Positions 33,329-52,341 of a stretch of 64,000 nucleotides of DNA are shown piece after piece. The translations under genes and the position numbers were made by a program. Each line of letters begins with the position of its first letter. Positions within the stretch are counted from its first letter, which is position 1. The notes beneath the pieces are model-generated. The model saw only the letters and a list, made by a program, of their open reading frames with translations. It did no database searches and had not been told where the DNA came from. The stretch lies in the NCBI RefSeq assembly GCF_013168275.1, contig NZ_AP019547.1, positions 1-64,000 on the forward strand. Reading direction: 5' to 3'. Source of the stretch: Candidatus Nitrotoga sp. AM1P (GTDB lineage Bacteria; Pseudomonadota; Gammaproteobacteria; Burkholderiales; Gallionellaceae).

Positions 33329-33359
33329 CGCCGCACCATAAAACCAAGGAATCCAGCCC

Positions 33360-36184: not shown

Positions 36185-36267
36185 GGGGATGGAACCACGG
36201 AATGCACGAAAAAAGTATGGTGATGGTAAAAAATAAAGTTCGTGAACTGTTGGGGATGATGGAATGA
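36181..36267 (+). CDS. 28-codon linker ORF between yhcG and hsdS
   Basis: ATG at 36181 overlaps the yhcG stop as ATGA. The frame runs 28 codons (MRGWNHGMHEKSMVMV...LLGMME) to TGA 36265-36267, which overlaps the hsdS start again as ATGA (36264-36267). It has no family and may serve only to carry ribosomes from yhcG to hsdS. A G-rich GGGGAT lies just before its last codons, so hsdS could also be started directly. Confidence 0.35.
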   Translation: MRGWNHGMHEKSMVMVKNKVRELLGMME

Positions 36268-37451
36268 AGTGGTATCCGTTTGCAGAGGTTGTCAGTGATG
36301 TGACCTCGAAGTTCAGAAAAATTAAGGCATCCGAATACCAGCCAGCGGGTCAATTCAAAATTATTGATCAGGGAAAAGATGCGATTGCTGGTTATACAAG
36401 TGACAAAACACTAATAAATGATGAGCAACTACCAATCATTATTTTTGGTGATCATACTCGGATATTGAAGTATGAAGAAAACCCTATTGCGCTTGGTGCG
36501 GATGGCGCAAAAGCTCTAAAAGTTGATCCGGAAATTGCTAATACTCTGTATGTCTATTACTACCTGAAATCCATCAAACTAAAGGAAGCTGGGTATAGCC
36601 GACATTTCAAATTTCTAAAAGAAACAAAAGTCCCAATCCCAACGAAAGATGGCAGGCCAAGCCTCGACGACCAAATCCGCATTGCCCATCTGCTCGGCAC
36701 AGTGGAAGGGCTGATCGCCCAGCGCAAACAGCGCCTGCAACAGCTCGACGACCTGCTCAAAAGTGTGTTTCTGGGAATGTTTGGTCCCCAGTCAATTGGA
36801 TATCTCAATTGGCCTCTGGTTGAAATCAAAGATCTTGCAGCCAAGCATAAGGGTGCAATGCGCACAGGGCCCTTTGGTTCACACCTTTTGCACAGCGAAT
36901 TTGCGACTAAAGGTGACGTGGCGGTACTAGGTATTGATAACGCTGTACAAAATCGCTTTGCCTGGAGTGAACGCCGGTATATCACACACGAAAAGTACCG
37001 GGAGCTTGAGAGTTACCGAATTTTTCCGGGTGACGTGATAATCACAATCATGGGCACCCTTGGCCGTTCGGCGGTCATTCCCAAGGATATTCCCCTGACT
37101 ATCAATACTAAACATTTGGCCGCAATTACTTTGAATACAGCCGTCGCCAATCCTTTATTTGTTTCTTACTCAATCCACTCAAGCCCATTTATTCTCAATC
37201 AATTTCGAAGCAAGAATCGAGGAGCAATCATGAGTGGCTTGAATCTCGGCCTCATTAAAGAGACAAAACTTAAACGTCCTCCAATTGAATGGCAGAACAA
37301 GTTTGCTGCCATTCACGAAAAAATCGATAGCGTTAAGTCGCGCTACAAACACAGCCTCACCGAGCTGGAAATCCTCTACGGTGCATTGAGTCAGCAGGCA
37401 TTCATGGGCGAGCTGGATTTGTCGCGTGTGGTGTTGCCGGAGTCTATGTAA
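36264..37451 (+). CDS. hsdS: Type I restriction-modification specificity subunit
   Basis: 395 residues with two target-recognition domains. The first is about 1-130, followed by a conserved coiled-coil spacer (LDDQIRIAHLLGTVEGLIAQRKQRLQQLDDLLKSVFLGMFG). The second is about 175-340 (MRTGPFGSHLLHSEFATKGDVAVLG...MSGLNLGLIKETKLKRPP), followed by the second spacer (WQNKFAAIHEKIDSVKSRYKHSLTELEILYGALSQQAF). Each domain reads half of a split DNA site, which cannot be predicted here. It ends TAATG-fused with the next gene. Confidence 0.93.
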   Translation: MKWYPFAEVVSDVTSKFRKIKASEYQPAGQFKIIDQGKDAIAGYTSDKTLINDEQLPIIIFGDHTRILKYEENPIALGADGAKALKVDPEIANTLYVYYYLKSIKLKEAGYSRHFKFLKETKVPIPTKDGRPSLDDQIRIAHLLGTVEGLIAQRKQRLQQLDDLLKSVFLGMFGPQSIGYLNWPLVEIKDLAAKHKGAMRTGPFGSHLLHSEFATKGDVAVLGIDNAVQNRFAWSERRYITHEKYRELESYRIFPGDVIITIMGTLGRSAVIPKDIPLTINTKHLAAITLNTAVANPLFVSYSIHSSPFILNQFRSKNRGAIMSGLNLGLIKETKLKRPPIEWQNKFAAIHEKIDSVKSRYKHSLTELEILYGALSQQAFMGELDLSRVVLPESM

Positions 37452-37559
37452 TGATCAGGAAAATCGAGTCCATTGCTAAGCTGGGCGTGTTCAAGGACTT
37501 CGACTGGGATAGGGACGTGCGCGACAAAAGCGGCAATGTCCAGCTTTTGCAAGGTGGAT

Positions 37560-38654
37560 TCAAGAACCAACCACAACAGTTAATGTTTAGTCGCGGATTT
37601 AGCGAGTTCCATATTGAGCAGGAGCTCGTTGTAAACCGCTACTGGCGTTCGAAATCCGAGCGATTTCCTCGGACGTGTATTTAAACTCCAAGCAATTTCA
37701 TCCAACTGTTCTTGCGTGTAAACCGACAGGTCTGCCCCCTTGGGCAAATACTGGCGCAGCAGTCCGTTCGTATTCTCGTTCAAGCCGCGTTGCCACGGGC
37801 TGTGCGGGTCGCAGAAGTAAACCGCCATACCCGTTCGTTCAGTCAGCTGCACGTGTTTGCTCATCTCGCGCCCTTGATCGTAGGTGAAGGTCTTGCGTAG
37901 CTCAGGTGGAATTGCACTGAGCGCTTCACTGAAACCGTCCAGGGCCGATTGCGCCGTGCCATCAGTCATTTTGGCTAACACCACCATTAATGTGGTGCGT
38001 TCGACCAGCGTGCCGACTGAGGAACGGTTCATCGCGCCTTTGATCATGTCAGCTTCCCAGTGCCCCGGTATCAAACGATCCGCCACTTCCGGCGGACGCA
38101 TATGGATGCTCTGCATTTCTGCTATATGCCCACGACCATCTGGAGCACGGGTCTTGGAACGGCGCTTGTCTCGGCTCCAGCGTAAGCTGGCAATCAATTC
38201 ACGGCGCAGTTCACCACGCGGCATGGCGTAAAGCGTGTGGTAAATCGTTTCGTGGCTTACACGTTGTGAGGGCTGAGCTGGGTGCATACTTTTAAGTGTG
38301 CCTGCAATTTGCTCAGGTGACCATTTCTTCTTGAGATGTTCCTTTACTACTTCAAACAACGGATTCCTTTCCACGAGCTTCAATGGCCTACGGGGCTTGA
38401 TTCGCAGACGGTGCGCCTGTTCGCCAGCCAAGGAGGCAACGTAGCCAGACTCACACCCCAAATCCCGTGCTATCTCGTTTGAGATAGTGCTTGGCGAGCG
38501 TTTCAAGTATCGCCCAATTTCCCTCAGTCCACTTCCTGCTCGTTTCATTAGCATTATCGTCGCGCGCTCTTCAGCATTCAACTGCTTGTAATGTTTTCCT
38601 GATTTCTCCATCCCAACACCTTAACCTCTCCAAGGTGTTGCGGTTGGTTATTGA
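37560..38654 (-). mobile_element. IS30-family insertion sequence
   Basis: Imperfect inverted repeats: TCAAGAACCAACCACAACA at 37560-37578, and TGTTGCGGTTGGTTATTGA at 38636-38654 (two mismatches). They enclose an intact IS30 transposase. The true tips may extend a few bases outward (GG...). It sits inside the RloC-like gene, in the opposite orientation to it. Confidence 0.85.
37580..38611 (-). CDS. IS30-family transposase
   Basis: 343 residues, apparently intact. The N-terminal helix-turn-helix has YKQLNAEERATIMLMKRAGSGLREIGRYLKRSPSTISNEIARD. The DDE integrase core has WEADMIKG (first Asp), FTYDQGREMSKH (second Asp) and SPWQRGLNENTNGLLRQYLPKG (Glu), all at IS30 positions. A good candidate for a still mobile element. 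Confidence 0.92.
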   Translation of the reverse strand: MEKSGKHYKQLNAEERATIMLMKRAGSGLREIGRYLKRSPSTISNEIARDLGCESGYVASLAGEQAHRLRIKPRRPLKLVERNPLFEVVKEHLKKKWSPEQIAGTLKSMHPAQPSQRVSHETIYHTLYAMPRGELRRELIASLRWSRDKRRSKTRAPDGRGHIAEMQSIHMRPPEVADRLIPGHWEADMIKGAMNRSSVGTLVERTTLMVVLAKMTDGTAQSALDGFSEALSAIPPELRKTFTYDQGREMSKHVQLTERTGMAVYFCDPHSPWQRGLNENTNGLLRQYLPKGADLSVYTQEQLDEIAWSLNTRPRKSLGFRTPVAVYNELLLNMELAKSATKH

Positions 38655-39691
38655 GCGCGCCCAAGCTATCAATATCATCTACGGCAGAAACTATTCAGGC
38701 AAAACCACCCTTTCGCGTATCTTGCGCGCCATGGAAACCGGACAACTCTCCGATAAGTTTGAAAATCCATCATTTTGTGTAGCCTTTGCCGATGGGACGC
38801 AAACAACGCAAACCAGTTTGACAAACCACGGCAAAAAATTCGGGTATTTAACGAAGATTTCGTCCGGGATAATCTGCGCTTCATCACCAACCCGGATGAC
38901 AACATTGAATCGTTCGCCATCCTCGGAGAAGACAATAATAAGATTGAGCAAGAAATTGGAGCTTTAGAAAAGGAGTTAGGCGCTCAAGAACAAGGGGAAG
39001 AAACCGGTTTATATGCACAGCGAGCTGAAATAAGAAAGGAATACGTCAAACACAAAGGCGAACATAAACAGACCTTTGATGCGTTGGAAAAGCAACTTTC
39101 TGATAAAGCCACGGACCGAAATATAGGCATAAAGTACAAGCCAGAGCGCTTTGGTGACCAAAACTACAACGTTACAAAGCTGAAAACTGAAATTGAAGAG
39201 GTCTTAAAGCCAAGTTATCAACCCTCTACAGGCGATCAATTGAGTAATTACGAAAAATTGATCGCTGAAAAAATACTGCAACCGGTTTCGCCATTTTGTC
39301 CCTCCAAACTGCAATTCGGTAATCTGGCAAATGAAGCAGAGATTCTTATCACCAAGAAAATTAGTGAGTCTGACAAAATCGAGGAATTGGCGAAAGACGC
39401 GGTCCTGAATCGCTGGGTTAGTGAGGGTCGATCTCATCACAAAGGAAAAAAGAGAGCGTGTGGTTTCTGTGGAAGCGCAATTACTACTGAACGCTGGGAG
39501 AAGCTGGAAAAGCATTTTGACGAAGAATCCAGCAAATTGGAAAAAGACCTTGATGTTTTCCTCAACAAAATCGAGACCGAAAAAAACTCTACATCGTTAG
39601 CGCTGTCAATTTTCGACCGCGCTGGACTGCTCGGGCTGTTGCAAGACCTGTACGCAGCCAACAAGGATAACCAAACCTTCCTGCACGCGCG

Positions 39692-40102
39692 TCTCAGTGT
39701 CTGGGCGACGATGTGCTCAAGCCGTACAAAACCACCATCGACCGCTGGCTGTGGCCCGATTTGTTCAAGAATCAGGATACTTCGGTCGCCAAGGCAAAAA
39801 AGCCTATCGCCGATTACAAGAAAGCCATCGGCCAAGCGGAAGGTCTGGCCGAACTGATGGTGTTTTATTGCGAACGGGCAGCGGGGTTCAGCAATGATGT
39901 CGGCCTGCAGGATGAGGGCTACTTCGATGCGCTGGTGCGAATGTTCGAGCAGGCCTTGAAAACCATCGCCAGTTTGGCCAACGTGCAGCGCCAGTCCTTA
40001 TGGGCAAGGCTGGATACGGTGCGCCGCACCTGCCATAACTTCGGCTATGGCGTGGGTGACGATATGGACGACCTGCTTGCCGAGTATGAAGCCGATGATT
40101 GA
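39692..40102 (+). pseudogene. DUF6155-like C-terminal fragment
   Basis: Frame 2 reads LGDDVLKPYKTTIDRWLWPDLFKNQDTSVAKAKKPIADYKKAIGQAEGLAELMVFYCERAAGF..., ending DDLLAEYEADD at TGA 40100-40102. The KAKKxIxDYKK and LAELMVFYCE blocks followed by a helical end resemble the C-terminal two thirds of DUF6155 proteins, which I recall near restriction loci. It begins abruptly where the RloC-like frame ends. GTG 39713 could start a shortened protein, but the family N-terminus is missing, so a deletion probably fused two genes. Confidence 0.5.
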
Positions 40103-40431
40103 ACGCGATCAGTTGGCTGCGCTGCCTGCGGTACGCGTCCTGGCTTTTCTTAGTGCTGATATCCACATCGTTTCTATTTGCCTGTCACCAGCTCATCGGT
40201 AAAAGCTTAGTGGATTCTGGAATATTTTAGCGTCTTTGAGGTAGGTAAATTCCATCTGTGCATGCAACGCTTTAATAGCCCCGGAAATAGAAAAGCAATC
40301 AACTCTCGCCCCTTACTACCTCACCCAATTGGTGCGCTGCATATTTTAAAATGTATAAAATTGGTGCATGCAAACTTTCTCCTTTTGACATAATACATTT
40401 CAATACATTGTTTTTTTTAGTTAAATTATAT
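40103..40431. other. Intergenic region between the defence island and glnK
   Basis: About 330 bases with no gene I can support. It becomes A+T rich toward the right, as upstream of the nitrogen-regulated promoter. NtrC-type enhancer sites (GCAC-N-GTGC-like) could lie here, but I did not find a clear pair. Confidence 0.45.
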
Positions 40432-40447
40432 TGGCACGGAAGCTGCT
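40432..40447 (+). promoter_or_regulatory. Sigma-54 (RpoN) promoter of glnK-amtB
   Basis: TGGCACG (40432-40438), four bases, then CTGCT (40443-40447). The GG and GC dinucleotides are spaced exactly as in the -24/-12 consensus TGGCACG-N4-TTGCA. It lies 110 bases upstream of the glnK ATG and predicts NtrC-dependent expression under nitrogen limitation. Confidence 0.85.
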
Positions 40448-40544
40448 TTTAACTGACTGCTGACTGAGTATTCCTTAGTCACTTTTCAAGCTTGGCAAAG
40501 AAAGAAGGGCATGTATCTCCCGATTTATGCACCAATACACATGA

Positions 40545-40895
<351 letters not shown>

Positions 40896-40905
40896 GGAGA
40901 ACGAC

Positions 40906-42396
40906 ATGAAAAAACTTTTTGTGACTTTTGCGTTGCTGGGCGTGTTGTATGGTCTGGTAGCCCCGGCATTTGCGGAGGAGGCTGCCCCTGCAGTATCGAC
41001 AACAGCTACAGCCCAGACTGCTACGGCAATTGATGCAGTTAAGCCCGTTCAAGCGGTAGCCGCTGTCGCGCCCACGCCCAACAAGGGTGATACGGCGTGG
41101 ATGCTGACGGCTACCTTGCTGGTCATCATGATGTCCATCCCGGGTCTTGCCCTGTTCTACGGCGGCCTGGTGCGCAGCAAGAACATGTTGTCCATCCTGA
41201 TGCAGGTGTTCGCTATCTTTGCGCTGATCATCGTGCTGTGGGCCATCTATGGCTATTCGCTGGCGTTCACGCAGGGTAATGCATTTATCGGCGGATTTGA
41301 CAGGCTGTTCCTGAGGGGCATCTTTGATCCGGTCACCGGCAGTGTCGCCAATGCGGCAACCTTCAGTAAGGGCGTGGTGATTTCTGAGTTCGCCTTCGTG
41401 GTCTTTCAGGCTACCTTCGCCGCCATCGCCGTTGCATTGATCGTGGGTGCTTTCGCCGAACGGATGAAATTCTCCGCTGTGCTGTTGTTCTCTGCATTGT
41501 GGTTTACCTTCGCGTATGTGCCGATTGCACACATGGTGTGGTTCTGGATGGGACCAGATGCCTACACTACTCAGGCTGCGGCTGATACTGCAACGGCAGC
41601 CGCAGGATGGCTGTTCCAGAAGGGCGCATTGGATTTTGCAGGCGGCACTGTGGTGCATATCAACGCGGCTGTTGCGGGTTTGGTCGGTGCATTCATGGTT
41701 GGCAAACGCATTGGCTACGGCAAGGAACCAATGGCACCACACAACATGGTCATGACCATGATAGGCGGCTCTCTGTTGTGGGTTGGTTGGTTCGGCTTTA
41801 ATGCTGGCTCGGCTCTGGAAGCATCCGGTACGGCTACGCTGGCCTTCGTTAACACGCTGGTTGCTACTGCCGCCGCCGCACTGACCTGGACGCTGGCTGA
41901 ACAGTTATTGAAAGGCAAGCCATCCGTGCTGGGGGCGGTTTCCGGAGCAGTTGCGGGTTTGGTTGCCATCACTCCTGCCTGCGGCTGGGTGGGCGTAGGC
42001 GGCGGCTTGATTATCGGTGCGCTGGCTGGGGTGGTGTGCTTCTGGGGCGTAACCGGTCTGAAAAAACTGCTGGGAGCAGATGACGCGCTGGATGTGTTCG
42101 GCATCCACGGTATCGGTGGCATATTGGGCGCATTACTCACCGGCGTGTTCAACACTTGGAGCATGGGTGGTACCGGTATCGTGGATTATGTCAATAATAC
42201 TATCATCGACACCACTATCAGCGGACAGGTGTGGATACAAGCGCAAGCTGTGCTGACCACGATCATCTGGTCCGGTGTGGTCGCCTTCGTTTGCTACAAG
42301 ATTGTGGATATGACCATCGGTTTGCGTGTGAAGCAAGAAGAGGAGCGTGAGGGGTTGGATACTACAAGTCACGGCGAACGGGCTTATAACTTCTAA
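40906..42396 (+). CDS. amtB: Ammonium transporter AmtB
   Basis: 496 residues from ATG 40906, which follows AAGGAGAACGAC. It has a signal peptide (MKKLFVTFALLGVLYGLVAPAFA), then a low-complexity Ala/Thr/Val linker of about 40 residues. Eleven helices follow, with DTAWMLTATLLVIMMSIPGLALFYGGLVRSKN at the first and the twin-His residues in FAGGTVVHINA and FGIHGIGGILG. The C-terminal tail (KQEEEREGLDTTSHGERAYNF) is the GlnK contact. The long linker after the signal peptide is common in proteobacterial Amt proteins. Confidence 0.95.
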   Translation: MKKLFVTFALLGVLYGLVAPAFAEEAAPAVSTTATAQTATAIDAVKPVQAVAAVAPTPNKGDTAWMLTATLLVIMMSIPGLALFYGGLVRSKNMLSILMQVFAIFALIIVLWAIYGYSLAFTQGNAFIGGFDRLFLRGIFDPVTGSVANAATFSKGVVISEFAFVVFQATFAAIAVALIVGAFAERMKFSAVLLFSALWFTFAYVPIAHMVWFWMGPDAYTTQAAADTATAAAGWLFQKGALDFAGGTVVHINAAVAGLVGAFMVGKRIGYGKEPMAPHNMVMTMIGGSLLWVGWFGFNAGSALEASGTATLAFVNTLVATAAAALTWTLAEQLLKGKPSVLGAVSGAVAGLVAITPACGWVGVGGGLIIGALAGVVCFWGVTGLKKLLGADDALDVFGIHGIGGILGALLTGVFNTWSMGGTGIVDYVNNTIIDTTISGQVWIQAQAVLTTIIWSGVVAFVCYKIVDMTIGLRVKQEEEREGLDTTSHGERAYNF

Positions 42397-42774
42397 TCCA
42401 CCTTATCTTGAAGCATTTCCGTTAGCTTCGCTATGAAGGTTGGACCGCCAGTTCATTGACTATTAAATGTTAATATATTTGTTGGTTTCGAGAAAAACAT
42501 AAAACGTAACATCAAGCATTGGTAAGGATGGTATTGATTGATTAATTTGATCCAGCCCCCCGCCAGAATGCTGGTATTCTGGCGGGCTTAGTTATTTAGT
42601 GTGATTTTTGCACAGGAACCTGCAATATAAATTTCGTTTAGCGCCTATTATTAGCATCCTGATAGATCTTCATGTCATGGAGCGGCTTTCGACAACCGCG
42701 CCATCTTATAAATTGTCGGCCGTTCCCCCACCCGCATAAAAAATCAGACAGTAGATGTTTTGCAAGAGACTCAA
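42397..42774. other. Intergenic region with the amtB terminator
   Basis: 378 bases between amtB and the glycosyltransferase operon. Apart from the hairpin at 42559-42586, no gene or RNA is evident. Promoter elements for the glycosyltransferases are not obvious. Confidence 0.5.
42559..42586 (+). terminator. Terminator hairpin after amtB
   Basis: Perfect 11-base stem CCCGCCAGAAT (42559-42569) / ATTCTGGCGGG (42576-42586) with a 6-base loop. It is followed by CTTAGTTATTT, a weak U-rich run. It closes the glnK-amtB operon. Confidence 0.7.
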
Positions 42775-45700
42775 ATGAACGCATCATGCGCACCTTCACC
42801 GATCGCTGATCACGCATCTCAATGGCCTGCATCGGGCGATCGTCTTGTATTGAAATTGCTGGAGCCAGGATTCAATCTGCAAGACGTTGTGCTGGTGCCG
42901 TCACCTGTTGCACCGGAGGGGCCGTTGGTATCCTGCCTGATGGTTAGTCGCGGCCGACTGTTGCCAGCGCGTCATGCTATTGATTGTTTCCGTCGACAAA
43001 CCTACCGGCAGCGTGAACTGGTAATCATTGATGACAACCCGGCATCTGAGCTGGCGGAGTTTCTGGTGGTTATGGACGATCCGCTGATCCGACACGTTAT
43101 ATTGCCGGCAAGCCAAGGGAGTCTGGGTAGCCTGCGCAACCGCGCGCTGGCCGAATCGCGCGGCGAGTTGGTGTGCCAGTGGGATGACGATGACCTGTAC
43201 GATGTGCGCCGCATCGCCTGGCAGGTGGAGGCTCTGCAGACGAGTGGGGCGCAAGCCTGTTTCTTGCGTCGCTGGACCCTGTGGTGGCCGGCTGAGCGCC
43301 GCATCGCGGTGTCCGGTGAGCGCATATGGGAAGGCAGTATGCTGGCAAGGCGTACGGCAGTGCCGGCCTATCCGGACCAGCGGCGAGGGGAGGACAGTGT
43401 GCTCACCGGGCAGATCATTGCAGACCACCGCGTGGTGCTGATGAATGCGCCAGAGCTCTACTGCTATACCATTCATGGCGGTAATACTTTCCACTACCAG
43501 CATTTTCTGGGCATCTACAATTCTTCCAGTGAGTTTGCGGGTCGTCAGAAATATGACAATTACTTGCAGCTGCTTGGTCGTCGGTTGCCGATCCTGGATT
43601 ACGCTGTTGCGTTGGAGCAGGCGGGCAACCTGGCTGCTTATCGGCGTCCGCAGCCAGTACCACTGCCCGATCGATTTATCGACCCGTCGCGGCAGCGCTC
43701 CGGACGCACACCGTCATGCAGCGAGCCGACAGTATCAATCGTCGTGCGCAGTATGGGCCGCAGCTGCCTGGCTGATGCCCTGAGTTCGCTGGTCGCGCAG
43801 TCCTATATTAAGCTCGAAGTGGTGGTGGTGGATGCCACCGGCGGGCGTCATCCGCCATTGCCGGCAACCATTGCGGCAGATGTGCGCTTTCGATTGGTGT
43901 GTGCAGGACGTCCACTGAAGCGCCCAGCGGCTGCAAATTTCGGTCTTGAAGCGGCCACTGGCGAATACATTGGTTTCCTGGATGACGACGACCTGTTTGA
44001 TCCGGAACACGTCGCGCTGCTGGTTCGCCGCATACTCGAGCCGGATCACCCTGACCTGGTCTATGCCGGCCTGTGGCTGGTTGATCGCTATCATCGTCTT
44101 ACTCGAAAACAGTGCAATCCGTTCAACACGCTGATGTTTCAGTTTTTCAATCTGATCCCGGCAATCTCGGTGCTGTTTCATCGCCGTGTGATTGAACTGG
44201 GTTGCCGTTTTGATGAGAGCCTGGAAATCTTCGAAGACTGGGATTTCTGGCTCCAGCTCGCATCACATGTGCGCATAGGGCGTATCGAAGTGCCGACGCA
44301 GCAGTACTTTATCGAGGCCGGAACATCCGGTTGCAGCATTGGCTTGAATGCCGATCCGGCACGTGCCGGACATTATTCGAAACACGTGCGTCAGCGCTGG
44401 CAGCCCTGTAGTTCGACACTGTGGCGTGAATATACTGCGCTGGTGCATGACCTGCTTGCGCGCTTTCACGATGGTGAGCGAGCTGAACTGCGTCCGGCGA
44501 TGCGGGCGCTGCTGCGGCGCTACCCAGAGGAGCCAAACATTGAATTCCACCTCGGACGCAGCTATCTCGCGGAAGGCCATGTTTTCAGTGCGCGCCGGCT
44601 TTATGAGTCGGCCGTTTCGCACAATCGCAGCTGCCCAGAATTCATACTGTCGCTGGCCCGGTTGTGGGAGGCACAGGGTTCGCCGGAAGATGCACTGTCA
44701 TGTTTGGAAGAAGTACGCCCAGCGCTGTTAAAGCAGACACAGGTAGTGGATGCCGAAATCATCCGCCTGCGACGCCTGCTCAACAGCCGCCGGATTTTTC
44801 CGGGAAGAGGAGCGGGCGGTGGACGCATGGGCCGCAATGAACCCTGTTCCTGTGGCAGCGGTGCACGTTATAAACATTGTTGCGGCCACTCCAGTGCGCG
44901 GCCAGAGTTGGCGGTTGCAGATCAGTCATTGCAAGTTGAATGTGACCGGTTGCAGGTGGCTGGTATTGAACAGTATCGATGTGGCGAGCTGCCCGCCGCC
45001 GGTGAATATCTGGCAGCGGCCAATGCCCTGCTACCGGGCCAGCCGATGGTAAATCATGCGTTGGCGTTATTGGCCTATGATCGAGGCGCGCTCGACGAGG
45101 CTGCGCGTTATGCCGATGTTGCACTGGCGACCTCTACTGATTCGGTTATCACGAGCTTCCATCGCCAATTGAATTACCGACGGCGCCGCATCGTCGAAGC
45201 GCAATTGCTGCGCGAAGCACTACGCGTTTCTGGACGTCTTTTATCAGCAGATGGCGTGCGTCTTGCGCTGGAGGCCGCGCGAACCATACTGGTGCTGCGT
45301 TGTAATGAGAGCTTTCCTCTGGCAAAGGATGATTTCAATGGTTGGCAGGGCGGGCTACACTTCTTCCAGGCCGACACAGAGGCACTACCGGATGTCGCGC
45401 TTTTGTCGTGGCCGGAACAGGGCGGTGTGCTGGTGATCGATGGGGTGCCCGAGGTTTTACCACCTCTCCTGGATTCGCAACTCTGTACACAGGTACTGAT
45501 GCGAGTTACCCGGGATTGTCCAGCCATGCTGTTCGAAATCGCTCATGCAGTGCCGTGCGGAATTGGCCTCGTCTATCCCGACGAGATTACTGCGCGACAG
45601 GTCGGTTTACCTGGGCTGGTTTTGCGGCCGACGCTGCCGCCAGCTGCATTCGAGATCGCGCGCCCGTCGCCCGGGATTCCTTTTCGGATAGGGCTGCGCG

Positions 45701-46206
45701 GTAGTTGCGAGGTTGATGGCCTGCATCCGCTTGATGCAGTGCTGATCCGTCGTCTGCTGGCCAGCAGACTGTCAGTAAGCGTGCATGGTGGCACACCTCT
45801 GCTGCGACATTTTCCGCCATCAGCGCTGCCGTCAGGTCTGCAGCTGCATGGCTTCGATGCGTCGCTGGGAAATTTTCTCGCCGGCATTGATTGCCTGGTG
45901 CTTCGACGCGCACCGCTGGCAAGTGGTGAGGCAGCGCTTGGCTTTGTTGCCGGCGCGCTGGCAGCGGGCTGTCCACTGATCTGCGCGGATGGACTGCCGG
46001 GCGCGGAGTTGATCGTGGATGGTCGCAATGGTTTTCTAGTCGCCGCCGGAGATGAGGCCACTATTTGCGAGCGCATTGCGCGGCTGCGCCAGGATGCGAC
46101 ACTCATGCAATCTATTTCCGAAGAAGCTCGCGCGACCGCCCGCCAACATTGGGCCGCGCAGGAATTGGGGTGCTGGACGCGTGTTCACATGGGGCTGGAG
46201 GTCTGA
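42775..46206 (+). CDS. Giant multidomain glycosyltransferase (GT2-GT2-SEC-C-GT-B-like)
   Basis: 1143 residues from ATG 42775 (a TTG 15 bases earlier is also open). Domain order: a GT-A/GT2 domain (about 50-250) with LVSCLMVSRGR...ELVIIDD and the acidic CQWDDDDLYD (137-140). A second GT2 domain (about 318-540) has TVSIVVRSMGR and IGFLDDDDLFD (403-406). Then come helical TPR-like repeats (about 560-670). A SEC-C zinc motif GRNEPCSCGSGARYKHCCG lies near 686-704. More TPR-like repeats follow, then a region ending in a GT-B/GT4-like half (about 1030-1140, SGEAALGFVAGALAAGCPLICADG...GRNGFLVAAGDE). This order is unfamiliar to me. It overlaps the next gene as TGATG. The region is G+C richer than its surroundings, suggesting transfer. 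Confidence 0.85.
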   Translation: MNASCAPSPIADHASQWPASGDRLVLKLLEPGFNLQDVVLVPSPVAPEGPLVSCLMVSRGRLLPARHAIDCFRRQTYRQRELVIIDDNPASELAEFLVVMDDPLIRHVILPASQGSLGSLRNRALAESRGELVCQWDDDDLYDVRRIAWQVEALQTSGAQACFLRRWTLWWPAERRIAVSGERIWEGSMLARRTAVPAYPDQRRGEDSVLTGQIIADHRVVLMNAPELYCYTIHGGNTFHYQHFLGIYNSSSEFAGRQKYDNYLQLLGRRLPILDYAVALEQAGNLAAYRRPQPVPLPDRFIDPSRQRSGRTPSCSEPTVSIVVRSMGRSCLADALSSLVAQSYIKLEVVVVDATGGRHPPLPATIAADVRFRLVCAGRPLKRPAAANFGLEAATGEYIGFLDDDDLFDPEHVALLVRRILEPDHPDLVYAGLWLVDRYHRLTRKQCNPFNTLMFQFFNLIPAISVLFHRRVIELGCRFDESLEIFEDWDFWLQLASHVRIGRIEVPTQQYFIEAGTSGCSIGLNADPARAGHYSKHVRQRWQPCSSTLWREYTALVHDLLARFHDGERAELRPAMRALLRRYPEEPNIEFHLGRSYLAEGHVFSARRLYESAVSHNRSCPEFILSLARLWEAQGSPEDALSCLEEVRPALLKQTQVVDAEIIRLRRLLNSRRIFPGRGAGGGRMGRNEPCSCGSGARYKHCCGHSSARPELAVADQSLQVECDRLQVAGIEQYRCGELPAAGEYLAAANALLPGQPMVNHALALLAYDRGALDEAARYADVALATSTDSVITSFHRQLNYRRRRIVEAQLLREALRVSGRLLSADGVRLALEAARTILVLRCNESFPLAKDDFNGWQGGLHFFQADTEALPDVALLSWPEQGGVLVIDGVPEVLPPLLDSQLCTQVLMRVTRDCPAMLFEIAHAVPCGIGLVYPDEITARQVGLPGLVLRPTLPPAAFEIARPSPGIPFRIGLRGSCEVDGLHPLDAVLIRRLLASRLSVSVHGGTPLLRHFPPSALPSGLQLHGFDASLGNFLAGIDCLVLRRAPLASGEAALGFVAGALAAGCPLICADGLPGAELIVDGRNGFLVAAGDEATICERIARLRQDATLMQSISEEARATARQHWAAQELGCWTRVHMGLEV

Positions 46207-47405
46207 TGCGTGGCATAAAACTGGTTTCCTGGTCGGGTACAACGGGTTACGCGCTGTCGGCGCTGGATTATCTGCGCGGTCTGGTGATGCAGCAGGTGCC
46301 GGTTGAATGGGTGCCGCTATGTTCCGGGCCAGATGGCTACATGCCATGGCGCGCGGACCTGGGCATTGATGCACTCGACTTCTTTCCGGCATTGTTGAAT
46401 GATCCAATGCATGCCGACCTGCCACAGCTGGTCGAGCGCTATTGCAGACCCTGCGACTACGACACGGTACTGGTGCATCTGCAGCCGGAATACTGGCCGG
46501 TGTATTTCGAACCCGGGCAGCGCAATATCGGCTTCACTGCGTGGGAAACCGATCATTTGCCGCCACACTGGCCCTCGCTGCTCAACCTGGCTGAGCGCGT
46601 GCTGGTACCCAGCAGCATAAACCGCGAAGTGTGCGAGCGTTGTGGAGTTGTGGTACCAGTGCGCGCAGTGCCGCACATGCTGCGCGAAATACCGCCGCCG
46701 GTGTCGGACGAACGGCGCCGGCAAATACGTGCCGGGCTTGGCATTGGTCTGCATACTACGGTGTTCTATTCGATCAATACTTGGGAGCCGCGCAAGGGCG
46801 TCTATGACCTCCTGAGTGCCTTTGCGAGCGCTTTTTCTAATGCGGATGACGTGGTGTTGCTGCTAAAGACCTCGCCACGAGGTATCGGTGCGCCGCCGTC
46901 TTACACTGCTGCACCGGTGGAAGAGTTGCTTGCGAAATGGCGCCAGCGCGCCACACGGGGTCGCGAGGTCGGCCTGCCATCGATCCGCGTGATCGGGGAT
47001 AATCTGTCCGGCGAGCAGATCGAAGACCTGCACCGCGCCGGCGACGTGTTTGTTTCGCTGACACGCGGTGAAGGTTGGGGCATGGGCGGCTGCGAGGCAC
47101 TGGTGCGCGGCCGCCCGGTATTGATGACCGGATGGAGCGGTCAGCTTGATTATCTTGGCAGCGAGTGGCCGTGGTTGGTGAACTATCGACTGACGCAGGT
47201 GACGCCATGGCCGGAGCAAGCCAGTTTTCTTGCTTCGCAACGATGGGCGCAGGCCGACCTGGCGCATGCTGCCGAATTAATGTGTAGTCTGCACCGTGAT
47301 CTGCCAACAGCCATGATGTATGTCGCGCAGGCTGCCGAAGTGCTGCACCAGAGGCTATCGATGGGGCGAATGACCGAACATTTACTGGCGAGTCTGAATG
47401 ACTGA
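46206..47405 (+). CDS. GT4-like glycosyltransferase
   Basis: 399 residues from ATG 46206, which shares its A with the stop of the gene before (TGATG). GT-B fold features: an N-terminal Rossmann half opening GIKLVSWSGTTGYALSALDYLRG, the NIGFTAWETDHLPPHW segment and the sugar-nucleotide half with VFYSINTWEPRKGVYDLLSAF. The late VSLTRGEGWGMGGCEALVRGRPVLMTGWSGQ corresponds to the E-x7-E-like acidic motif of GT4. It probably extends a surface glycan or modifies a protein. It overlaps the next gene by 8 bases. Confidence 0.88.
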   Translation: MRGIKLVSWSGTTGYALSALDYLRGLVMQQVPVEWVPLCSGPDGYMPWRADLGIDALDFFPALLNDPMHADLPQLVERYCRPCDYDTVLVHLQPEYWPVYFEPGQRNIGFTAWETDHLPPHWPSLLNLAERVLVPSSINREVCERCGVVVPVRAVPHMLREIPPPVSDERRRQIRAGLGIGLHTTVFYSINTWEPRKGVYDLLSAFASAFSNADDVVLLLKTSPRGIGAPPSYTAAPVEELLAKWRQRATRGREVGLPSIRVIGDNLSGEQIEDLHRAGDVFVSLTRGEGWGMGGCEALVRGRPVLMTGWSGQLDYLGSEWPWLVNYRLTQVTPWPEQASFLASQRWAQADLAHAAELMCSLHRDLPTAMMYVAQAAEVLHQRLSMGRMTEHLLASLND

Positions 47406-48237
47406 AATACCGCGTATCTTTCATTTTGTGTTTGGGTTGCGTTCGCAGAACGAACCATTTCATTTGCTGCACTATCTGTGTCTGGAATCATGCCGGCAGG
47501 TCAATCAACCTGAGGTGATCCACTTTCACTACCTCAACGAGCCTTGGGGGTACTGGTGGGATCGTATTCGGCCGCACCTGGTGCTGCATCGTGTTGATCC
47601 GGAGCCATTTGTTCGTGATACCACCCGCTACGCCAACACGCCGGAGGGGCGCATTATTCGCCAGCGCAACCTCGACTACGCGCACGAATCAGACTTCATT
47701 CGCATGAAGGTGCTGCAGACTTGGGGCGGGGTGTATGCGGACATGGACACGCTATTCTTACAGCCGATGCCGGATGAATTCTATCGCGAGCAGTTTGTTA
47801 TCGGTGCGGAGCAGGATGAGGTGGAGGAGCACGATCCGATGAAACGCTCGCTCTGTAACGCGCTAATGCTGGCGCGGCCGGAATCAGTCTATTTGGCGCG
47901 CTGGCTGGAGAGTATGTATCGGGTATTTGACGGCACCTGGAGTCGTCACTCCTGCCAGGAGGCGACGCGAGTGCGGCAGCAGATACCGGATGCAGTGCGC
48001 GTGCTGCCCAAGCGCTGTTTCCACCGACATGGTGCTGACCCAGTCGGTGTGCATACCCTGTTCGAGGGGCTTGACGAGGATTTTTCAGGCATGTATTCAA
48101 TGCATTTGTGGGCGCACCTGTGGTGGGATGAATGGCGCACCGATTTCACCATTGTGCATGGTGGCATGATCGACGAGGACTACGTGCGTTACGCCGAGAC
48201 CACTTACGCGGTGGCGGCACGAAGGTTTCTTGACTGA
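47398..48237 (+). CDS. GT32-like glycosyltransferase (DXD, Gly_transf_sug)
   Basis: 279 residues. It opens IPRIFHFVFGL (the IPKxIHxxW-like start of the family) and has YAHESDFIRMKVLQTWGGVYADMDTLFLQPMP, with the DXD metal-binding site DMD near residues 114-116. Family members transfer a hexose from a nucleotide sugar onto glycans or lipids. The C-terminus is rich in Trp and His (HLWAHLWWDEW). Third gene of the glycosyltransferase operon, after which strand direction changes. Confidence 0.88.
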   Translation: MTEIPRIFHFVFGLRSQNEPFHLLHYLCLESCRQVNQPEVIHFHYLNEPWGYWWDRIRPHLVLHRVDPEPFVRDTTRYANTPEGRIIRQRNLDYAHESDFIRMKVLQTWGGVYADMDTLFLQPMPDEFYREQFVIGAEQDEVEEHDPMKRSLCNALMLARPESVYLARWLESMYRVFDGTWSRHSCQEATRVRQQIPDAVRVLPKRCFHRHGADPVGVHTLFEGLDEDFSGMYSMHLWAHLWWDEWRTDFTIVHGGMIDEDYVRYAETTYAVAARRFLD

Positions 48238-48314
48238 AGTAGAGAAACGCGTTGTACCTGCGGCCCGGAGGATCGTTCATCCTGCTTCTGCAGATAGATT
48301 GAATTCGTTGCCGC

Positions 48315-48860
48315 TCAGGGGTGTTTTATCATTTTTCTGCCTTGCTGCCAGAGTAAGAAGACTCCTAGGGCGCCCGCAAGAATGGACGCAAGGAACACTC
48401 CAATCTTTGCAGCCGCGAAGTTCGGAGCATGCGGAAATGCTTTAGCAGCGATGTAGAGCGACATCGTAAACCCAATGCCGGCAAGTGCAGCGGCGCCGAT
48501 CATCTGCTGCCAGGAATAGGCATCGGGTTTGACGGCCCATCCCATTCGAACCGCAATAGCGGCTGCCGCGACCATGCCAAGCGGCTTACCCACAATCAGT
48601 CCCAGCATGATGGCAAGGATCAAATACTCTCGTCCGTGGACGACTTCCATGGAAAGAACGAGGCCCGCATTGGCGAGTACAAATAAGGGTAGCACCAAGT
48701 AGCTGGACCACGGTTCCACCGTCCGCAGTAGCTTGTCGGCCGGGGATTCGATTCGGTCGTGAATGGCATCGAGGGCACGCATTGATGACTCTGACGGGCC
48801 GTGTCGCAGGACTCTTTCTTCTGAACTGACAGTTTGGCGTGGAGCACCGACTCGGCTTGT
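48315..48860 (-). pseudogene. nhaA: C-terminal half of Na+/H+ antiporter NhaA
   Basis: From about [18 protein letters not shown] to the stop, the text is the C-terminal part of Nha[76 protein letters not shown] and [23 protein letters not shown]. The N-terminal helices, including the conserved Asp pair of the ion site, are absent. The frame continues upstream to 49139 but that text is not NhaA-like. The truncated transporter cannot work. Confidence 0.8.
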
Positions 48861-49233
48861 GCTATTAATGCCGCTAGATTCGCGGGTGGTCGGGTTAGTG
48901 TAATTCCATTTCTCAATCAATAATAAAATATTGAATGGTGCATTGCATCTGCTAATAGCAACGGAGCATAGAATGCACCACATAGTTATTGCCGCTTTGA
49001 AAGATAAATGGAATAACATCGCAAAATGGCTCTGTTTCGCTTTCACTGCAAGAGCGGAGGCGTGATTGGTTTGCATCTTCTCCTGCGTGGTGACGCGTTC
49101 AATTCTGGTCTTGATTTTCAAATTGTCGCGTACTTGCAATGGAAGCTGGTATCTGGGTGAGAACGATGCTATTGATATGCTTCCGAATGCTTTGCAGGTA
49201 AGGTTAGTCGTCGATCTCGGCGCTGAAAGAGAG
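48861..49233. other. Non-homologous flank of the nhaA remnant
   Basis: 373 bases. On the minus strand the nhaA frame remains open to 49139, but codes for an unrelated text ([21 protein letters not shown]...) that I cannot assign. Nothing else is recognisable. The junction near 48860 is presumably where the 5' half of nhaA was deleted. Confidence 0.45.
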
Positions 49234-50142
49234 TTACTTTTTAAAGTCTGATCTGTTTATTTCAGGAAAATGCCGTGAACGCACATTACCTTTACCGTTT
49301 TTCTTTACTTCATACATTAAATCATCGGCAGCTTTGAGCATTGCAGGGAACGAACGATCAGCTTCGCTGAACCACGCTATTCCGATGCTACCCTTTACTG
49401 GCGGAAAACTTTGAAGTGCGGTGTCCACTGCAGTGGAAATTTTCCGACCTACCTCGACAGCTGCCTCGTATCCAATTTCTAAGAGCAGAACGGCAAATTC
49501 GTCACCACCCAATCGCGCGACTCGATCGCTAGAGCGCGAGATACTGCGCAGCGCTATGGCTGTCGCTCGAAGTGCCGCATCCCCAGCATCATGGCCTTTG
49601 GTGTCGTTAAGCTGTTTAAAATCGTCCAAATCCAGAATAATAACGGCCAATGGGTGTGTATAGCGCTTTGTGCGCTCAACTTCGGAGGCGCCAGCCTCGA
49701 GAAAGGCTCGCCTGTTATAAAGCCCAGTCAGAGGATCCCGGGTTGCGCGTTCATGCTCTCTTTCAAATTGCAAACGAACCTGATTGGCAAGAAGAGCTAC
49801 CAAGCTGTAAGTCATTAAGTGGGTTAAAGCGTTTATCCATGGAATCCACAGGAAACTGTATTGTCGCTCGGAAGCAATATCGCCTACGAGAGATATCGTA
49901 GAGGCAAGAATAGCCATAAACAAACCATTCTTTTTTCCACCTATCCATGTAATTACAAGTACCGGCAGCACCGCTAAGGATACAAAATCGAATTCGGCGT
50001 GAGTTGCTATCCGAAACGTAATAATAAGAAAAAATATACAGACGCAGATTGACCATACAATCCACAGGCGCCAACCGGTCCATAAGGTACCGAGGAGGAA
50101 ATTAGGAATCCTTACCTTTTTCATATTTATTGAGCCGATCAT
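49234..50142 (-). CDS. Membrane-bound diguanylate cyclase (GGDEF)
   Basis: 302 residues. Four hydrophobic segments (about 28-42, 53-69, 72-90, 105-119) are followed by a short coiled link and a complete GGDEF domain: [32 protein letters not shown], and GGDEF at 212-216. An inhibitory-site RxxD (RSSD, 203-206) stands exactly five residues before it, so product feedback is expected. It makes cyclic di-GMP, probably in response to a membrane or redox cue. The start may be ATG 50142 or the Met seven codons later. Confidence 0.92.
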
Positions 50143-50442
50143 TAAATAGTGAGCGGTTCACTTTGTTCATTTTAAAGGTTAGGTGAGTTGGACAAGTTCA
50201 GGCAGGACGGTTTCAAGTTTTAAATTGGCCGACTATAAACTCCCTGCATGATGCGATTTTCCAAATTTACAATATCTCCACTACTAAATTATCAAACAGC
50301 GTCATTTGTGAGGTATCGAATAGTGTTCGGTATTATCACATTTAGCATTTATTTGTACTAGGCTAACAGCTCAATATAATTATTAAACAATGTGATATAG
50401 ATCAATTCTTAGGCTTTTAATTATCAATTACAAGGTTTAAAC

Positions 50443-50688
50443 CACTGGCTTTAGCCGGTCAGCTTTAGCTGCGACAACATGTCACACGAATGGAGGTATG
50501 GGATACATCACATGGTATTTCAAATTGAGTATCATTTTGTATGGGTAACGAAGTATTGCTACAAGGTGCTGAATGGAGAGGTGACGGAGCGAGTCCGGGA
50601 TTTGGTGAGAGAGATATGCGAAGCCTTTGAAATTAGGATCGTCAAAGGTATTGTGAGTAAAGATCATCGGTTAAATTTGAACTCATAA
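50443..50688 (+). mobile_element. Left end of an IS200-type element with truncated TnpA
   Basis: Two adjacent small palindromes (ACTGGCT-TT-AGCCGGT at 50443-50458, CAGCT-TT-AGCTG at 50460-50471) form the usual subterminal hairpins of IS200 elements. ATG 50479 then begins MSHEWRYGIHHMVFQIEYHFVWVTKYCYKVL...IRIVKGIVSKDH, the N-terminal half of an HUH transposase. It ends just at the first His of the HUH region (KDHRLNLNS-stop). The right half is deleted, so the element is dead. Confidence 0.75.
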
Positions 50689-50773
50689 ATTAATGAATGA
50701 TCGTTGTTATAGAAGATTGAAAGTTGAGGGTAACGAATTCATATTTATTATTATTCAAATGGATATGTACATA

Positions 50774-51001
50774 CTAATGGTCGGAATCCTTAGGGGCGTC
50801 GCAACGATCTTCCTCAGATATACCTGCAGAGGCCTTGGATTTATCCGATCCCGATGTGTCAGATGGTACTGACATATCTGACCTTGATTGACCAGGATCT
50901 CCAGACCTATCAGACATGGATGTATCAGAATCTGCATACACTAACGTAACAGCTAATGTGAAACAAGAAACTATAGCAAGATTAATAATAGTCTTTTTCA
51001 T
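50774..51001 (-). CDS. Small secreted Ser/Asp-rich protein
   Basis: 75 residues from ATG 50999-51001, preceded by a perfect AAGGAG six bases upstream. The signal peptide MKKTIINLAIVSCFTLAVTLVYA is followed by a low-complexity polar tail with repeated SDxS-type units (SDTSMSDRSGDPGQSRSDMSVPSDTSGSDK), ending DRCDAPKDSDH. It is probably disordered and periplasmic. No family is recognised; a metal- or cell-wall-interacting role is only a guess. Confidence 0.65.
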   Translation of the reverse strand: MKKTIINLAIVSCFTLAVTLVYADSDTSMSDRSGDPGQSRSDMSVPSDTSGSDKSKASAGISEEDRCDAPKDSDH

Positions 51002-51336
51002 GAAATTCTCCTTGAGATGAAATGTGCGAAAGTATCTCGGTAAGGTTAGCCACGCTTTGCTTGTATAGGCTCTCATTGAGTCTGCTCATATTGCCAGTGG
51101 GCAAACTCAGTCAGGACATTAAGTGAGGGTGCTTGAGCTGTCTGTGTGGTATCGCACGCTAACAAATATGAAGCTTGAGAAGAAAGGACAGAATTCTTTT
51201 GATAGATTTAAAAGGAGGTGTCAAATGAGGCGAGGAATCTCTGGGGCGATATACCGTTCAAATTACAGTATTTGTTAAGACGGATTGATTGATCTACTTG
51301 AATGCTTTTATGCGGCTACTGGATGTCCAAATTTCA
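51002..51336. other. Intergenic region before the small secreted gene
   Basis: About 335 bases between the stop of cioB and the start of the small secreted protein gene. No gene is supported. A CydX-like peptide was looked for just past the cioB stop and only a 9-codon frame was found. Confidence 0.45.
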
Positions 51337-52341
51337 TCAATGATAAGTCCTTGCGGCGCCTACTTTGTCGCGGAATACCCAATAAGAATAGCCGGAGTAA
51401 ATTAAAATTAACGGAAGCAAAACTGCAGATCCCGTTAAAAGAAATGAAAGACTGTTGTCGGGAGCGGCTGCATGCCAAATCGTGACCGATGGTGGAACTA
51501 TATAGGGATAAAAGCTGAAACACAGGCCGATGAATGAGAGTATGAAAAGTCCTAGCGAAGCCAGGAACGGCATTAATTCCCATTTCTTTGTCAGGCCCCA
51601 ATACAGACCCAAAGCGCACAGGGCAACAAGAATAGGAACGGGGGCGACGTAGAGAAATTGTGGCCATGAAAACCATCGCATCATGAAACGCTCATTAAGA
51701 AACGGCGTCCACAGGCTAACACAACCGATCAGTATTAATGTCATTGGACCGGCGATCCATGTAAAGCGATATGCCGCTCGTTGTACATTGTTTTCGGTTT
51801 TGTAGATCAGCCATGTTGCACCCAACAGGGCGTAACCTACGACGAGCGCTACGCCCGTCATCAGGCTAAAGGGCGTTAACCAATCCCAAAATTGTCCAGC
51901 ATAAGCCCGGCCACTGACCGGAATGCCTTGAATAAGTGCTCCAAGTGTAATGCCCTGTGCAAAAGCTGCCAGGATTGAACCGCTGGTGAATGCCCAATCC
52001 CAAAGATACTGGCCGTGTTTTGTTTTCCAACGGTATTCGAAAGCGACACCGCGAAACACCAAAGAGAGCAGCAAAGTAATAATGGGTACATAGAGAGCCG
52101 GCATGATGACCGCATAAGCAAGTGGAAAAGCCGCAAACAACCCACCGCCGCCGAGCACCAGCCACGTCTCGTTGCCATCCCACACGGGTGCGACAGAGTT
52201 CATCATCTGATCACGATCGGCTTCATTTTTGACGAAAGGAAAAAGGATGCCGATACCCAGGTCAAAGCCGTCGAGGATGACATAAGCTAAGACCGCAAAG
52301 GCAATGATGCCGGCCCATATCAAGGGAAGATCAAGTGTCAT
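51337..52341 (-). CDS. cydB: Cytochrome bd oxidase subunit II
   Basis: 334 residues. It begins [37 protein letters not shown], the CydB opening that includes the conserved DGFDLG. NSVAPVWDGNETWLVLGGGGLFAAFP follows, the classic signature, and later helices complete eight or nine spans. It pairs with subunit I to form a quinol oxidase reducing O2 without proton pumping. The start overlaps the subunit I stop as ATGA. Confidence 0.93.
   Translation of the reverse strand: MTLDLPLIWAGIIAFAVLAYVILDGFDLGIGILFPFVKNEADRDQMMNSVAPVWDGNETWLVLGGGGLFAAFPLAYAVIMPALYVPIITLLLSLVFRGVAFEYRWKTKHGQYLWDWAFTSGSILAAFAQGITLGALIQGIPVSGRAYAGQFWDWLTPFSLMTGVALVVGYALLGATWLIYKTENNVQRAAYRFTWIAGPMTLILIGCVSLWTPFLNERFMMRWFSWPQFLYVAPVPILVALCALGLYWGLTKKWELMPFLASLGLFILSFIGLCFSFYPYIVPPSVTIWHAAAPDNSLSFLLTGSAVLLPLILIYSGYSYWVFRDKVGAARTYH

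Follow-up and report, generated by a model that had tools for sequence, protein, structure and literature searches.

A predicted multi-transferase with an internal SEC-C motif opens a three-gene cassette in Candidatus Nitrotoga and probably acts on protein prior to export

Analysis of the first 64,000 nucleotides of the nitrite-oxidising bacterium Candidatus Nitrotoga sp. AM1P (NZ_AP019547.1, positions 1 to 64,000; hereafter the window) revealed a gene of unusual composition, gene 1 (42775..46206, forward strand), whose 1143-residue product combines two GT2 glycosyltransferase domains, TPR helices, a SEC-C motif, further helices and a GT-B end. The predicted sites support the view that several transferases are joined in the product of gene 1, both GT2 sites of which look intact, and the gene is followed by two overlapping transferase genes. 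We propose that this glycan-assembly enzyme probably acts on protein prior to export. The full reading, in which a cytosolic multi-transferase opens a three-gene glycan-assembly cassette and reaches an exported protein through docking by its SEC-C motif, is advanced tentatively, with slightly less than even confidence. How bacterial cytosolic glycosyltransferases find proteins that are exported later is poorly understood. If the proposal is true, a SecA-type docking finger shared by several transferase classes of a single genome would tie glycosylation physically to export targeting in a way open to test.

The reading frame of gene 1 is uninterrupted from ATG to TGA over 1143 residues (42775-46206), and the opposite strand of the same interval carries many stops in the frame read. 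Pfam matched GT2 (PF00535) in two stretches (3e-23; 83 bits for the whole protein, cut-off 23.3), and together with the alignment described below this places the first GT2 domain at residues 48-280 (42916..43614) and the second at residues 313-545 (43711..44409), both on the forward strand, as are all other parts of gene 1. Each domain possesses a DDDD motif (residues 137-140, 43183-43194, and residues 403-406, 43981-43992) and an ED pair (residues 206-207 and 487-488). In GT2 enzymes the Asp-rich motif serves metal and nucleotide binding, and ED is the catalytic pair. An earlier note on this DNA, made from its letters without database searches, had claimed two DDDD-bearing GT-A cores and had set a profile search for two GT2 domains as a refuting test; that search found both. 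They are followed by a first TPR block (residues 546-674, 44410..44796; TPR_19 at residues 598-653, 27 bits, cut-off 25; seven helices in the model), the SEC-C motif (residues 686-705, 44830..44889), a second helical, TPR-like block (residues 715-820, 44917..45234) that gave sub-cut-off TPR matches only (residues 761-789) and is helical in the models, and a GT-B, GT4-like domain (residues 837-1129, 45283..46161). SEC-C was recognised with 26.1 bits (PF02810, residues 687-704, cut-off 20.4) and has its cysteines at positions 691, 693, 702 and 703; the letters quoted for it in the earlier note were exact, and the strict SEC-C pattern has a single occurrence across the six frames of the window. 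The GT-B domain matched GT4 (PF13692, residues 999-1107, 30.7 bits, cut-off 27) and, marginally, PF00534 (26.5 bits, cut-off 26.4), and Pfam found no match of gene 1 to Glyco_transf_41 (PF13844) up to an E-value of 1. NCBIfam returned only weak matches, far below cut-off, to TuaG, WcaA and EpsD, and Rfam had no match at gathering score within 39000-52000. The membrane association once suggested for the enzyme found no support in 19-residue hydrophobicity windows, which revealed no convincing membrane span in gene 1: its three windows above 1.6 (1.71, 1.98 and 1.71) all lie at 1052-1054 within the GT-B core, whereas the ammonium transporter next to the cassette has 72 of them.

Full-length copies of gene 1 are present in nine of 19 Candidatus Nitrotoga genomes, that of the window (a single contig of 3,008,303 bases) included, and the Nitrotoga copies are 71-92% identical to the gene of the window. 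Outside the genus, the complete domain order, confirmed by Pfam, was encountered in two metagenome-assembled genomes (MAGs) at about 33% identity, namely a Thiobacillus MAG (L061; L and G numbers are our labels for loci and genomes) and a MAG contig labelled, doubtfully, Bordetella parapertussis (L062). An alignment of these 11 sequences revealed that both DDDD motifs, E206 and D207, E487 and D488 and the four SEC-C cysteines (C691, C693, C702 and C703) are invariant in all of them, the cysteines thus out to about 33% identity. The ratio of nonsynonymous to synonymous substitution rates (dN/dS), taken as summed dN over summed dS for up to 36 Nitrotoga pairs with synonymous-saturated pairs omitted, amounts to 0.130 over the entire gene. 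The two GT2 domains come to 0.098 and 0.082, the first TPR block to 0.106 and the GT-B halves to 0.192 and 0.140. The lowest of the ten segment values belongs to SEC-C (0.076, over 20 codons); the linker preceding it reaches 0.455, and the linker following it plus the second helical block, measured jointly, 0.150. Since full-length orthologues exist in nine of the 19 genomes of the genus, with invariant residues and low dN/dS, the architecture is not a product of chance, and the chain of two GT2 domains, TPR, SEC-C and GT-B-like end described in the earlier note is borne out by Pfam matches above cut-off and by the invariance across 11 sequences. With its own genome set aside, gene 1 had no full-length match in 199 genomes of the order (E 1e-60), nor in 368 genomes of the class and 397 of a phylum sample (E 1e-70). 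Partial matches were obtained in three genomes of the order (G096, G330 and G346) and two of the phylum (G651 and G705); that of G096 is an 852-residue protein matching residues 310-1137, in which SEC-C falls barely below cut-off (20.2 against 20.4 bits). Among plasmid and phage records none spans 80% of the gene 1 query. SEC-C in any frame of at least 120 residues was detected in nine of 78 loci (seven from Nitrotoga, L061 and L062) and in none of the other 69.

The C-terminus had been described earlier as a GT4-like segment; the PF13692 match agrees with this, and in the models it resembles an entire GT-B domain with two alpha/beta halves (about residues 837-1127). The EX7E motif, a marker of GT4 activity, is broken in all nine Nitrotoga copies, where its second Glu is replaced by G, S or W, and in one of them (L060, from Ca. 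Nitrotoga fabula) the first Glu is Ala. It is kept in the Thiobacillus homologue, reads D...Q in L062, and an E-x7-E stretch is contained in the 852-residue protein of G096. Because EX7E is broken, we name the domain GT4-like rather than an active GT4. It is still under selection but, judging from these replacements, is probably no normal catalyst in Nitrotoga. The AlphaFold models were built from 12 sequences and hold neither metal nor partner. The whole-protein model is weak (mean predicted local distance difference test, pLDDT, 60.8; predicted template modelling score, pTM, 0.30), and a second model of residues 546-1143 is better (pLDDT 77.2, pTM 0.51), with helices at 547-673 and 714-819 followed by GT-B. 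For the whole model the highest Foldseek rank went to the chondroitin polymerase K4CP, and the top 20 also included SPINDLY, heparosan synthase and O-GlcNAc transferase (OGT) (query-normalised TM-scores 0.11-0.17). For residues 546-1143 SPINDLY and OGT came out on top (0.20-0.33), and the capsule synthesis multienzyme 8qoy was also among the matches. As these TM-scores are low, we take the model comparisons to speak for folds in a similar order rather than for a shared arrangement.

The earlier note had overlooked two transferase genes downstream of gene 1, the broken EX7E motif and the further SEC-C/TPR transferases encoded in the genome. Gene 2 (46206..47405, forward strand) encodes a 399-residue GT4-type transferase in which E-GWGMGGC-E is present, and its ATG shares one base with the stop of gene 1. 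Gene 3 (47398..48237, forward strand), the first 8 bases of which are shared with the end of gene 2, encodes a 279-residue Gly_transf_sug (DXD) transferase. The three genes stand together in all nine Nitrotoga genomes with gene 1 (the window and eight other loci): the cassette adjoins amtB in the window, L042, L054 and L056, lies beside or near acs in L055, L057 and L058, and has other settings in L059 and L060. These nine genomes all have gene 3, and a stop-containing remnant of it persists in G008 (L138, about 9356-9759), where 405 bases of the cassette end survive and the surrounding 19.9-kb stretch revealed no other cassette part, which suggests probable loss of the cassette from that genome. 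Between amtB and gene 1, a terminator-like hairpin of 12 pairs (42559..42586, forward strand) would have the cassette transcribed as a unit of its own; terminator-like sites in this region occur at chance level (6 found, 6.0 expected), and the scan of the region for promoters and terminators was at or below chance.

The modules of the cassette recur together elsewhere. Within the family of the first GT2 domain (GT2_1; present at E below 1e-50 in 68 scanned loci, 1.25 Mb), the gene 2 profile gave 11 matching rows at 10 distinct loci, L142 being the contig of L075. These matches are always on the same strand as GT2_1 and at most 2.35 kb away, in the same frame in six of the ten, and the remaining GT2_1 loci, Streptomyces included, had no match to the profile. 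The gene 3 profile matched four other loci weakly (E 2.9e-5 to 2.7e-7). All six GT2_1 proteins that were scanned are fusions of the order Gly_transf_sug-GT2-...-Anp1 (Streptomyces L069, Azoarcus L066, Symploca L065, Parvibaculum L098, Azospirillum soli L117 and Azospirillum L088), with a GT4 domain between GT2 and Anp1 in L098, L088 and L117. The Parvibaculum enzyme carries Gly_transf_sug-GT2-GT4-Anp1 in a single protein; that of Azospirillum soli, with 1831 residues, has an added TPR and GT-D-like domain and precedes an RTX/Big_5 protein. In Magnetococcales (L142) the gene 2 relative is the C-terminus of a TPR-GT41 protein, GT41 being a family of protein O-glycosyltransferases, and this fusion is followed by the GT2 gene and by genes for a DUF4347 protein rich in Ser and Thr and for an efflux protein of the outer membrane. 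Because relatives of the modules are fused or adjacent elsewhere, as in the Magnetococcales layout, we treat genes 1-3 as what is probably one pathway, and we favour a protein acceptor.

The closest match of the SEC-C motif in the PDB is the SecA peptide chain 1ozb_I, with 16 of 21 residues identical. We take 1ozb to be the C-terminal peptide of SecA, the motor of protein export, bound to SecB, and for this reason the resemblance points, by analogy, to SecB or another SecA partner rather than to SecA itself, the partner suggested by the earlier note. Passages of a review (PMC8076867) relate that the metal-binding domain of SecA binds SecB, that near-identical domains are found in YecA and YchJ, and that Pfam holds at least a dozen further unexplained proteins with such domains. 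The better model places the motif between the two helical blocks, on a stretch of low confidence (residues 675-713) that is possibly flexible and would fit a tethered docking finger. The genome has five SEC-C loci. One encodes a 903-residue protein with a C-terminal SEC-C, taken as SecA by eye; the others are gene 1, L014 (GT2-TPR-SEC-C-GT2, 35% identical to gene 1 over residues 316-708), L015 (DUF5672-SEC-C-TPR-GT9) and L016 (SEC-C-TPR-GT41). The Thiobacillus locus L061 likewise holds three SEC-C proteins inside about 8 kb, namely the gene 1 homologue, a SEC-C-TPR-GT2 protein and a DUF5672-SEC-C-TPR protein with a sub-cut-off GT9 match (18.9 against 22 bits). Since the other three non-SecA SEC-C proteins of the Nitrotoga genome are all TPR transferases, SEC-C/TPR looks like a re-used adaptor. 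A defence role was considered and rejected: the one weak PADLOC match of gene 1 (PDC-S12, 21.8 bits) lies over the SEC-C end and is ascribed to SEC-C, and PADLOC had no matches for genes 2 and 3.

In the mechanism that we propose, the two GT2 sites of gene 1, then the GT4 enzyme of gene 2 and then the DXD transferase of gene 3 would add sugars successively. The TPR superhelix would hold the acceptor, and the SEC-C finger on its flexible stretch would dock the enzyme to a partner in the export pathway (SecB or a site on the ribosome), so that an unfolded exported protein could be modified before leaving the cytosol; the GT-B end, probably degenerate in Nitrotoga, would be mainly structural or binding. 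The suggestion of the earlier note that several sugars are added in one pass agrees with the presence of two GT2 sites and of two coupled transferases downstream, their activity being predicted. What the analysis itself establishes is the anatomy of gene 1, its conservation, the overlap of the three genes and the repeated linkage of the modules, whereas catalysis, action in sequence, a protein acceptor and docking through SEC-C are inferred. With two GT2, one GT4 and one Gly_transf_sug site, all predicted to be active, the cassette would supply four transferase sites in compact form for glycan synthesis in vitro. A bolder extension, which we consider rather unlikely, is that SEC-C with TPR constitutes a general adaptor through which modifying enzymes (GT2, GT9, GT41, GT4, even sulfotransferases) receive unfolded exported clients from the Sec/SecB pathway and glycosylation is coupled to export targeting, with gene 1 as its most elaborate member that would build a whole glycan on the client.

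Several observations weigh against this proposal. Docking by SEC-C is argued from likeness only, and no acceptor gene was seen by eye beside the Nitrotoga cassette. An obvious Ser/Thr-rich surface-protein gene adjoins the transferase in only two of 11 relative loci (L142 and L117); in Nitrosomonas L126 a Ser/Thr-rich frame of 1034 residues, with no Pfam match, lies about 5 kb from the transferase. SEC-C is present in 129 of 140 genomes of the class; of 15 stretches chosen among the best-scoring rows, a sample biased to high-scoring SEC-C, five were dropped (two SecA-like ends judged by eye, three without an open reading frame by the motif pattern). Among the ten non-SecA proteins scanned, all from the best-scoring of the class, none is a glycosyltransferase, and we rejected the idea that SEC-C-transferase fusions are a class-wide commonplace. 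The SEC-C/TPR-transferase pattern is strong in the Nitrotoga genome and, beyond it, at most a candidate for a general rule. One of the ten is a SEC-C-TPR-sulfotransferase (L159, 2703-5333, forward strand, 877 residues); the SEC-C/TPR head is not confined to glycosyltransferases.

Possible acceptors were also counted across the 19 Nitrotoga genomes, and these counts are only indicative, several genomes being incomplete and all being related. The RTX proteins suggested by Azospirillum soli were found in five of the 19 genomes, none of the nine with the cassette against five of the ten without it, and DUF4347, suggested by the Magnetococcales locus, in none of the 19; the RTX count speaks against the proposal, and that of DUF4347 carries little weight, as the 14 control genomes were equally silent. 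Flagellin_N (PF00669) is present in 14 genomes, eight of the nine with the cassette and six of the ten without it. Flagellin as an obligatory acceptor was rejected, again a point against, as G005, rated 100% complete, has the cassette and no PF00669 match. FlmG of Caulobacter, according to a passage of one paper (PMC7591256), binds flagellin via its TPR part, and gene 1 might similarly encode a cytosolic, FlmG-type flagellin glycosyltransferase with TPR-bound flagellin. The high count in cassette genomes and a 401-residue frame with a weaker Flagellin_N match, which in G013 shares its contig with the cassette at a distance of about 20 kb, would agree with this, but G005, the six cassette-free genomes with a match, the distance of more than 400 kb between the flagellin matches and the cassette in the genome of the window, and the absence of any flagellar gene recognised by eye in the stretches round the cassettes render it highly improbable. 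GT41 is found in 15 genomes, all nine with the cassette and six of the ten without it. The counts argue against an obligatory role of flagellin or RTX as acceptor, and a glycan initiated by GT41 would be compatible with them. Three GT41 frames of 717, 1321 and 736 residues on one strand (L143, G000:C1:2073503-2080223), with similar frames in many Nitrotoga genomes, are possible initiating protein glycosyltransferases.

A serious rival to a protein acceptor, which we regard as plausible although less than probable, is that gene 1 encodes a dual GT2 polymerase or an oligosaccharide-extending enzyme for lipopolysaccharide (LPS), capsule or exopolysaccharide, TPR and SEC-C merely serving as a scaffold for partner enzymes. 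By fold, the tandem GT2 domains match K4CP, ranked first, and heparosan synthase; 8qoy is itself a capsule multienzyme, and TuaG, WcaA and EpsD, far below cut-off as they were, are in line with this role. Among relatives of the second GT2 domain, three that were scanned (Nitrosomonas L126 and L130, and a Methyloprofundus plasmid, L163) are fused to RgpF, two of them with PIG-L too; the plasmid bears two genes annotated for LPS transport and, further on, annotations of a membrane fusion protein and an EexD-type ABC protein. The Thiobacillus homologue of gene 1 stands, by eye, in a cluster of transferases and acyltransferase-like genes. The RgpF and PIG-L fusions, the LPS-transport genes and the fold matches of the tandem GT2 domains also weigh against our proposal. 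The neighbourhood of the Nitrotoga cassette, however, revealed neither a flippase, a polymerase or an ABC exporter nor a sugar-nucleotide gene (Pfam on six neighbours in the window, the rest by eye), and the TPR, the SEC-C and the GT41 fusion of the gene 2 relative suit a protein acceptor better. With either acceptor, SEC-C could be a structural relic of a fusion between a GT2-TPR gene and a SEC-C-TPR-transferase gene, a finger that now docks nothing. Since separate SEC-C-TPR-transferase genes (L016, L061 18584-19903 and L159) carry SEC-C among their first 45 residues, the internal position of the motif in gene 1 would fit a fusion scar. A relic would decay, yet SEC-C has the lowest dN/dS of the ten segments, albeit over 20 codons, and its four cysteines persist out to about 33% identity; a structural role is conceivable, but the segment is modelled at low confidence. 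We hold a relic to be unlikely, and retain a protein acceptor with SEC-C docking as the tentative proposal.

Comparison with known systems suggests that the arrangement of gene 1 is undescribed, its component kinds being already known. Within the genome L014, L015 and L016 also place SEC-C beside TPR and a transferase, but with other transferase classes and none with two leading GT2 domains and a GT4-like end. OGT, SPINDLY and FlmG resemble gene 1 in the modelled order of TPR then GT-B, a likeness of layout only, and Foldseek ranked OGT and SPINDLY highest for the C-terminal half, at TM-scores of just 0.2-0.3; in gene 1, by contrast, the GT-B domain is GT4-like rather than GT41, has no EX7E in Nitrotoga and is accompanied by two GT2 domains and SEC-C. 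K4 chondroitin polymerase and heparosan synthase have tandem GT-A domains like gene 1 but are only about 15% identical, and to our knowledge they possess no TPR, SEC-C or GT-B end. The SEC-C of gene 1 resembles the C-terminal metal-binding domain of SecA, YecA and YchJ, but is internal, lies in a glycosyltransferase and has Cys as its fourth ligand where 1ozb has His. The Gly_transf_sug-GT2-(GT4)-Anp1 fusions combine GT2_1 with Gly_transf_sug in six of six and include a gene-2-like GT4 in three of six, like the cassette; they differ in that none of their loci has SEC-C, one of six has TPR, and Anp1 takes the place of the second GT2 domain. The earlier note knew of no described system with this domain order and named well-described homologues of that order as a refutation. 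No description of it was found in the open-licence literature (titles and abstract starts), nor any paper on the Gly_transf_sug and Anp1 fusions, and the passages seen of a Gallionellaceae pangenome study (PMC10734462) are silent on the architecture; homologues with the same order do exist, however, in the nine Nitrotoga genomes, L061 and L062.

The remaining observations concern the surroundings of the cassette. Downstream, on the reverse strand (48315-49139), the Na+/H+ antiporter frame has 274 residues against the 617-residue protein of L042 and L054 and may be broken. The interval 30530-39857 upstream begins with a type I restriction-modification set composed of R, M, a PDC-S02-like nuclease and S. 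A transposase-like gene, IS30-like by eye, stands at 37580-38611 on the strand opposite to this set, and the best match of the frame after it spans only positions 82-348 of the 790 of the PDC-S06 profile, apparently a truncated defence gene.

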